From Natrinema pallidum DSM 3751 (lineage in GTDB: Archaea; Halobacteriota; Halobacteria; Halobacteriales; Natrialbaceae): 64,000 nt of DNA. The stretch is taken from assembly GCF_000337615.1 (NCBI RefSeq), contig NZ_AOII01000034.1:1-64000 (forward strand), given 5' to 3'. Made by a program: the position numbers and the translations under genes. The notes below the pieces were generated by a model. The model was not told the origin of the DNA, did no database searches, and saw only the letters and a list, made by a program, of their open reading frames with translations. Position 1 is the stretch's first letter. Each line of letters starts with the position of its first letter. This document shows positions 29,508 to 31,712 of the stretch, piece by piece.

Positions 29508-30224
29508 TTACTCGCGCGACTGGCGGGCGATCTCTCGAATGCGTTCGGTCCCCTGGTCCACGTACCCTCCGTGGTAGCAAACGGTGTGATCGATCTCGAG
29601 GTCCGCCAGCGTCCTGACGGACTCGATCGCCTGCTCCATTGCCGGCGTGAAGCGAGGCTTCGGACCGGCGAGGGGAGCGTCCCCGTCAGCGACGAGCGCA
29701 TCGCCGGCGACGAGCAGGTTCGCGTCCGGGAAGTACAGCGAGACGTGTCCGGGTGCGTGCCCGGGCGTCGCGACGACCTCCATCGGCCCCGCGAGCGTCG
29801 GGAACCGGACCCCGTCGGCCAGTTCGATATCGACATCGACGGGCGGATAGCGATCGCCGTCGCCCGCGGCCGGTTCCGACTCGCCGGAGACGTACGGCGC
29901 TGCCGCGCGGTGGGTCGCGACGACCGCATCGACTCGCTCGAGGAGGGCCGCAAGCCCGCCCGCGTGGTCGCCGTCGCGGTGAGTCACGAGGACGAGCCAC
30001 ACGTCGGCGAGGTCGTACCCCAGCGATCGCAGGTGGGTCCGAACCCCGTCGAGGGCACCCTGCGGACCGGCGTCGATCAGGATCGGGCCGCGGTCGGTTT
30101 CGACGAGCGTCGGCGTGATCGTGAGTTCCTGCCCGCCGTACTCGACCGTGATCGGCAGCACGTGGACGCCTGTGTCGTGTTCGTCGTCAGTTGCCGACAT
30201 ACTCGAGTCGTTCGTGCTCGCCAT
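29508..30224 (-). CDS. MBL-fold metallo-hydrolase
   Basis: 238-aa metallo-beta-lactamase fold hydrolase with the metal motif THRDGDHAGG (HxxxDH), then GHAPGHVSLYF, AGDALVADG and a late His in CYHGGY that complete a two-metal site. The substrate is not deducible; the fold includes glyoxalase II-like thioesterases, lactonases and others. The first 18 residues are Ser/Asp/Thr-rich with an internal Met, so the true start could be MSATDDEHD. It is divergent from the terpene synthase gene. Confidence 0.82.
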   Translation of the reverse strand: MASTNDSSMSATDDEHDTGVHVLPITVEYGGQELTITPTLVETDRGPILIDAGPQGALDGVRTHLRSLGYDLADVWLVLVTHRDGDHAGGLAALLERVDAVVATHRAAAPYVSGESEPAAGDGDRYPPVDVDIELADGVRFPTLAGPMEVVATPGHAPGHVSLYFPDANLLVAGDALVADGDAPLAGPKPRFTPAMEQAIESVRTLADLEIDHTVCYHGGYVDQGTERIREIARQSRE

Positions 30225-30315: not shown

Positions 30316-30321
30316 TTTATA
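30316..30321 (+). promoter_or_regulatory. TATA box of the terpene synthase gene
   Basis: TTTATA in an AT-rich island (about 30290-30345) ends 23 nt before the ATG at 30345, predicting a leaderless message. A TTGT-CA-ACAA inverted repeat lies at 30302-30311, upstream of the box, and could bind a regulator. Confidence 0.6.
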
Positions 30322-30344: not shown

Positions 30345-31340
30345 ATGAAAATAGAGGCAAAACGTCCTCCGCTCGAGATCGAATCGGATCCGTTCTCGGA
30401 CGCACAGCGGCGGACGCTCTCGGAAACGGTGCGGCCGCTCGCCGACGCGTACGACGAACTGATCGCCGACCGGGACCGCTCGGCGTGGCGGTGGTTCGAC
30501 GCGATCGAACCCGAGTTCAGACTGTCGTGCGTGAGCGACGAGTACGGCCAGCGAGTTCGCGACGCGAAAGTACTGGCAACCATGTTCATCACCGTCATCG
30601 ACGATGTCGCCGAGTGCCACAGCGATCGGACGACCCTGGAGGAGTTGCTCCTGGTCCCGTTCGATTCCCGGCCCGCCGATCCGACCCGAGCGGGCGTCGA
30701 CGGCGAGTACGTCCGGTTTCAGCAGGACCTCTGGGACGCGCTCGTAGAGCAGTACGCGGCGGGTCCGCGCGCGGCGGAGTTCGCCGATCTGTTCCGGTTC
30801 GACGTCCGACAGGCACTGCAGTCGGTCGATTACTCGGCGCTGTTGGCTCAGTACCCGGGCCTCGTCGGCGAACGCGAACTCCGCACGTACGATGTCTACA
30901 ACATGATGCTCTTTCCGTTCGCCGATATCGATCTCGCCAACGCCCTCGCGTTCGAATCCCGGGAGCTATCGGCCGTTCGGAACGTCGTCGCTCACGGGCA
31001 GCGGATGGCACGGATCGGCAACTGGATCGCCACCTGGGAACGGGAACTCGCCGAGGGCGATTACAGTTCGGCCGTCGTGGTTCGCGCCCTCGAGTCGGGG
31101 GTCGTTTCACGCGCGGATCTTCAAGCGATCCGGACAGCCCCGACCGATGCGACCGTCGATCCGATCGTCGATCGAATCCGCGAGTCCGGGATCGAGGATG
31201 AGTTCATCGACCGGTGGTGTCACGAGTACGAGTCGGCCATCGACTACTGCGGCGAGATCGACTCGCTCGACGTTCGAGCCTATCTCGAGGGGTTCGAGCC
31301 GATCTTCCGGTCACAGCTCGCGAGACGGCCGTCGGCCTGA
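30345..31340 (+). CDS. Probable class I terpene synthase (terpene cyclase)
   Basis: 331-aa all-helical protein whose metal- and diphosphate-binding residues line up with bacterial class I terpene synthases. The Asp-rich motif is DDVAE (Asp86, Asp87, Glu90). The NSE triad is Asn226, Thr230 and Glu234 in GNWIATWERE (N-x3-S/T-x3-E). A sensor-like Arg180 with Asp183 (RTYDV) lies 46 residues before the NSE Asn, the spacing in selinadiene synthase. RAY (311-313) sits near the position of the C-terminal RY pair. The 140-residue gap between metal motifs and the total length fit sesquiterpene/diterpene cyclases. No cytochrome P450 or prenyl-diphosphate synthase is adjacent. The product is unknown. It could instead be an inactive relative, but retention of every motif argues against that. 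Confidence 0.72.
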   Translation: MKIEAKRPPLEIESDPFSDAQRRTLSETVRPLADAYDELIADRDRSAWRWFDAIEPEFRLSCVSDEYGQRVRDAKVLATMFITVIDDVAECHSDRTTLEELLLVPFDSRPADPTRAGVDGEYVRFQQDLWDALVEQYAAGPRAAEFADLFRFDVRQALQSVDYSALLAQYPGLVGERELRTYDVYNMMLFPFADIDLANALAFESRELSAVRNVVAHGQRMARIGNWIATWERELAEGDYSSAVVVRALESGVVSRADLQAIRTAPTDATVDPIVDRIRESGIEDEFIDRWCHEYESAIDYCGEIDSLDVRAYLEGFEPIFRSQLARRPSA

Positions 31341-31445
31341 CTGATTGCCCGCCGGACCGACGTGACGTCCCGAAACCCGAATCGCGGACCGCAACCGGGA
31401 CATGGGATCGGTGCGGTCTTGTGGCCCGCCCGCGTACGGCCGGGC

Positions 31446-31712
31446 ATGCCGGTTCCGAAGTCCGAATTCGAGCAGCTTCCGCCGTGTGACTTCTACACGC
31501 CCGCGGAGTTGCTCGAGGACGACCAGATGTACACCGTCTACGAGATCGCCCGGATGCTACAGGGAGCCGATCCCGACGCCGAACTCGACCCCGAAACCGA
31601 GGACGTCCTGCTCGACTGGGCGATTCCGTGGGTCATGACCAACGCCGACGACCTCGTGGTCGCCGAACCCCGGGACGAAGACGAGCCCGGCTACTACGGC
31701 CTGAAAGAATGA
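31446..31712 (+). CDS. Small conserved haloarchaeal protein (possibly DUF5827)
   Basis: 88-aa acidic protein with MPVPKSEFEQLPPCDFYTP at its start and a well-ordered central helix pattern (LEDDQMYTVYEIARMLQG). One Cys is present. I associate it tentatively with DUF5827. Its stop overlaps the ATG of the P-loop ATPase gene (ATGA), a strong sign of translational coupling and of a joint role. ATG at 31446 is preferred; an upstream in-frame ATG at 31362 would add a Pro/Gly/Arg stretch. Confidence 0.68.
   Translation: MPVPKSEFEQLPPCDFYTPAELLEDDQMYTVYEIARMLQGADPDAELDPETEDVLLDWAIPWVMTNADDLVVAEPRDEDEPGYYGLKE

Follow-up and report, generated by a model that had tools for sequence, protein, structure and literature searches.

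To our knowledge, archaea depend on isoprenoids yet were long thought to be without dedicated terpene cyclases. Anchor residues typical of bacterial terpene synthases have been listed (PMC8450962), and in selinadiene synthase the Asp at the second position of the NSE motif is described as hydrogen-bonding to the sensor (PMC8450962). For archaea, active terpene synthases have already been reported in a bioRxiv preprint (Samusevich et al., bioRxiv 10.1101/2024.01.29.577750, as cited in PMC12797696), and because of that report we do not claim a first in archaea; a mention in PMC13235557 also refers to archaeal enzymes earlier characterised in yeast. The initial annotation of the DNA studied here, which called such cyclases rarely characterised in archaea, was therefore fair as to how little is known and incomplete as to this cited preprint. 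Terpene clusters have moreover been reported in haloarchaea by antiSMASH-type surveys (PMC8600319) and terpene-like contexts in Natrinema and its relatives by EvoMining (PMC6939163), and in 2023 halocin and bacterioruberin were described as the sole archaeal clusters confidently tied to secondary metabolites before the study in PMC10105419.

The window, that is, the whole stretch of 64,000 nucleotides of Natrinema pallidum DSM 3751 that was analysed, holds on its forward strand an intact open reading frame of 331 amino acids (30345..31340; ATG at 30345, stop codon at 31338-31340), which we predict with high confidence to encode a single-domain (alpha-type) class I terpene synthase. Judged by sequence comparison, it is a real gene under purifying selection: dN/dS against six relatives lies between 0.10 and 0.30, the third codon position holds most of the differences, and no internal stops were found in any relative among the homologues across haloarchaeal genomes. 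The encoded protein is acidic (D+E = 19%), as expected for haloarchaea. Upstream, a TATA-like element, TTTATA (30316..30321, forward strand), lies ~24 nt 5' of the ATG, a spacing that would suit a leaderless transcript, and AT-rich elements like it recur at near-equal spacing 5' of many homologues.

The assignment starts from a match of residues 80-253, a span covering both metal motifs, to the Pfam family PF19086 (Terpene_syn_C_2; 28.8 bits against a cut-off of 23.7, E 1.2e-6), the synthase being the only protein in this organism's genome to match that family. The score is modest; compared with the family at large, NW-x-x-TW-x-RE replaces ND-x-x-S-x-x-(K/R)E and several structural anchors are missing. 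Among 75 family members, aligned down to 25% identity to the query, 57 match PF19086 (E<=0.01). An NCBIfam search with the window protein gave no match, and solved structures searched by sequence and by family profile gave no single significant one; the only solved chain named in the profile search was that of Stt4548 (E 0.71, not significant).

The residues on which the initial annotation had built its case (D86/D87/E90, R180/D183 and N226/T230/E234) are all present where it placed them, and the two metal motifs are conserved across the 75 members. In the Asp-rich motif, D86-D87-V-A-E90 (30600..30614, forward strand), a putative binder of two Mg2+ ions, D87 is invariant, D86 is kept in 71/75 with Asn in the others, and E90 in 69/75 with Asp in the others. 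In the NSE-type motif, R223-I-G-N226-W-I-A-T230-W-E-R-E234-L-A-E-G-D239 (31011..31061, forward strand), the candidate binder of the third Mg2+, N226 and E234 are invariant and position 230 is Thr in 71 members and Ser in four. The complete set of residues found in 75/75 comprises D87, R212, R223, N226, W227, W231, R233, E234, D239 and D309, and the aromatic residues W48, W50, W130, W227, W231 and W291 are strongly conserved. The motif pair alone is weak evidence: when the window protein was shuffled 20,000 times with its composition preserved, DDxx[DE] and N...[ST]...E arose 120-165 residues apart in 38 cases, so that several proteins per genome could show such a pair by chance. It is the PF19086 match, together with the near-invariance of both motifs over the 75 relatives, that lifts the case above chance. 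With the predicted fold described below, these findings support the proposal that this haloarchaeon has a class I terpene synthase.

The proposed sensor fared differently. R180 to D183 (30882..30893, forward strand) had been put forward as a pyrophosphate sensor and linker, and the family alignment rules Arg180 out as a conserved sensor, with Arg at that position in just 11/75 members and Trp the commonest residue (Trp 32, Leu 8, Glu 8); position 183 is Asp in 59/75. The spacing of 46 residues from Arg180 to Asn226, likened to that of selinadiene synthase, is numerically correct, and the likeness is coincidental, because Arg180 is not conserved and the second NSE position, canonically Asp, is Trp227 in 75/75 members. 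Other canonical anchors are also missing across the 75-member alignment: the Asn expected 8-9 residues after the NSE motif was found in 4/75 at +8 and 1/75 at +9, and no conserved Arg stands beside Tyr313 as a C-terminal RY pair. The Pro at -21 is present in 16/75, position -14 is mostly Arg rather than Leu, Val or Ile, and the helix-F Arg position is Phe in 63/75. All of these positions, those of the sensor and of the second NSE residue included, presuppose standard spacings, and insertions could have displaced some of them. The joint absence of the sensor Arg and of its Asp partner makes a coherent change, and it does not refute the enzyme class, since some active synthases, such as SmTS1, are naturally without the sensor. 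Diphosphate recognition must differ from the selinadiene-synthase type, given that the family as a whole lacks the sensor Arg along with its Asp partner, as well as the Asn that would follow the NSE motif and the RY pair. We therefore class the family as non-canonical class I terpene synthases.

Two AlphaFold2 models were built from seven close orthologs (model 1: pLDDT 75, pTM 0.77; model 2, of a second ortholog: pLDDT 70, pTM 0.67). Model 1 is all-helical; D86 falls towards the end of helix 65-91, and N226-E234 towards that of helix 205-236. Its top 50 PDB fold matches are all class I isoprenoid synthases, including the terpene cyclase AriE; the second ortholog's model also matches diterpene synthases, 10-epi-cubebol synthase, T-muurolol synthase and biformene synthase. 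A search of a viral fold library gave no useful match. The PDB matches score modestly (TM about 0.5, rmsd 8-10), and prenyl diphosphate synthases have the folds closest to the models. Structure prediction thus agrees with the annotated class as far as the superfamily goes: at moderate confidence the predicted fold supports class I isoprenoid synthases, and by itself it cannot separate a cyclase from a prenyl diphosphate synthase. As both kinds of enzyme are matched, that decision falls to the sequence evidence.

Homologues of the synthase are present in 51/125 genomes of the same family (Natrialbaceae) and in 120/391 genomes of the haloarchaeal class, roughly a third, and a profile search with the 75 members also retrieved seven genomes of one genus outside the haloarchaea, which we take to be methanogens because the five of them that were tested all carry methyl-coenzyme M reductase. 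The members from this genus (L114-L123) form at least two subtypes, ~41% identical to each other. A search of viral contigs for the family returned one weak fragment (L088), and every haloarchaeal plasmid record found to carry a member annotates it as 'hypothetical protein'. In one genome the synthase gene is tandemly duplicated (L039:8326-10708).

The surroundings of divergent relatives bear on what the family may do. In another genome of Natrinema, a second family member (L056:1-15827 = G060:C1:544000-559826) has as neighbours two P450s, two FAD oxygenases, two methyltransferases, a SnoaL protein, a UbiA protein, an aminotransferase and a hydrolase, in what is apparently a terpenoid or meroterpenoid biosynthetic cluster, beyond which come succinate dehydrogenase genes in one direction and polysaccharide-synthesis genes in the other. 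At L063, its sister in the tree, SnoaL and short-chain dehydrogenase genes adjoin the synthase, and the two regions provide the strongest, though indirect, evidence for a role of the family in specialised metabolism. As general evidence, P450 neighbours are only suggestive, for they occur at just 5 loci, a closely related pair among them, and P450s are present in most haloarchaeal genomes.

Regulatory genes recur beside the synthase as well. A Bat-type regulator (PAS-GAF-BAT-HTH_10) adjoins it at seven loci of a supported clade spanning three haloarchaeal families (L057, L058, L059, L062, L064, L070 and L080), and PAS sensor kinases do so at five other loci. This regulator cluster fills 12/70 slots adjacent to the synthase, against 12/427 of the remaining slots in these regions (binomial p ~6e-7, an optimistic value, as related loci are not independent), and the position of the Bat-type, bacterio-opsin activator-like regulators suggests oxygen- or light-linked control. 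A FilR1/HVO_A0261-like winged-helix regulator lies directly 3' of the synthase on the same strand at six loci (L047 and L050-L054). At one divergent locus, two adjacent homologous small genes without a Pfam match lie directly 3' of the synthase (L073:10132-11293), and relatives of this small gene (gene cluster 27) also flank the synthase at L071, L072 and L079.

We propose that D86/D87/E90 and N226/T230/E234 would hold a trinuclear Mg2+ cluster to which a linear prenyl diphosphate would bind through its diphosphate group, that ionisation would follow, and that the resulting carbocation would cyclise or rearrange in a non-polar pocket to give a terpene hydrocarbon or alcohol. GGPP is made by archaea for their lipids and would for this reason be the likeliest substrate, with FPP or C25 GFPP also possible. 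Diphosphate recognition could fall to the invariant R212, R223 and R233, together with Trp227/Trp231. Most of the best fold matches being farnesyl and geranylgeranyl diphosphate synthases, the protein might instead be a prenyltransferase, such as a divergent prenyl diphosphate synthase, elongating or coupling chains rather than cyclising them, and yet it contains a single DDxx[DE], with an NSE-type triad where the second Asp-rich motif would be, none of the Pfam matches of the 75 members is to polyprenyl_synt (PF00348), and three clear prenyl diphosphate synthases are encoded in the genome already. With neither two DDxxD motifs nor a PF00348 match, identity as a prenyl diphosphate synthase is not supported, and we regard any such prenyltransferase as quite improbable. 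Slightly less probable again is a class I fold of another activity, namely a diphosphatase releasing a linear prenol or a non-cyclising synthase yielding a linear hydrocarbon; loss of the sensor Arg, the NSE Asp and the RY pair could loosen control of the cation and so favour water capture or simple elimination, but the many conserved aromatics listed above suit a shaped cation pocket, and one relative lies in the cluster with oxygenases, methyltransferases and UbiA.

The last alternative, and the one to which we give the least credence, joins the terpene synthase with the adjacent metallo-beta-lactamase-fold gene in a two-gene pathway. The latter gene (29508..30224, reverse strand; PF00753, E 1.5e-25) lies head-to-head with the synthase across a shared 120-bp intergenic region in the window, as a pair seen in most Natrialbaceae loci examined, and the same gene (gene cluster 1) is near the synthase in 28 loci. 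It is, however, found in 29/29 genomes of the genus, nine of which are without the synthase; in synthase-less genomes the hydrolase gene directly abuts the next housekeeping gene, and outside Natrialbaceae the synthase has other neighbours. The functional pairing is accordingly rejected as positional, and the hydrolase gene is probably a neighbour rather than part of a terpene pathway.

The usual slot in Natrialbaceae runs from the metallo-beta-lactamase-fold gene through the synthase to a Cys/Met PLP-enzyme or RNA polymerase Rpb4 region, and genomes without the synthase retain these flanks; in three of them the genes to either side stand ~80-95 bp apart. The synthase gene thus comes and goes as a single unit. 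In the window, a DUF5827 gene (31362..31712; PF19145, E 5.9e-46) follows the synthase by 21 nt on the same strand; it is also found there in the close relative L003 and not in most others, and is only a neighbour. No tailoring genes were found near the window copy, and no P450 match was found in the organism's genome. The window copy is a stand-alone accessory gene, an orphan single-gene insertion between housekeeping genes.

To bring these results together, one can imagine an archaeal-specific class I family that recognises the diphosphate through a different residue set, the invariant R-x-x-NW-x-x-TW-x-RE without sensor Arg or RY pair, and that supplies dedicated terpenoid or meroterpenoid pathways of haloarchaea under the control of Bat-type or kinase sensors, a proposal that we offer tentatively and as one that may well prove wrong in its full form. 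That the family is widespread and intact, in roughly one haloarchaeon in three, indicates that a branch of archaeal natural-product chemistry has been overlooked. For work on that branch it supplies defined genes, the linked regulators and one apparent gene cluster, and it lets one see, as a natural experiment, which 'essential' residues of terpene synthases can be jointly replaced.

Compared with selina-4(15),7(11)-diene synthase (SdS), the reference for the sensor/linker/effector arrangement, the family places its Asp-rich motif and its NSE triad similarly; the 46-residue spacing between R180 and the NSE motif belongs to the window protein only, and family-wide there is no conserved sensor Arg and the Asp partner is Trp, so that on sequence grounds we do not assign these enzymes to the SdS type. 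Another parallel is the sestermobaraene synthase SmTS1 of Streptomyces mobaraensis (PMC8450962), which is active without the sensor Arg (G180) and without the Asp at the second NSE position (NQ), the likeness being one of shared losses drawn from the published description rather than from a sequence alignment. In the NSE region itself, the R-x-G-N-D-x-x-S-x-x-R-E-x-x-x-G-D motif of the Streptomyces class I diterpene synthases Stt4548/Sat1646 (PMC9814573) resembles RIGNWIATWERELAEGD.
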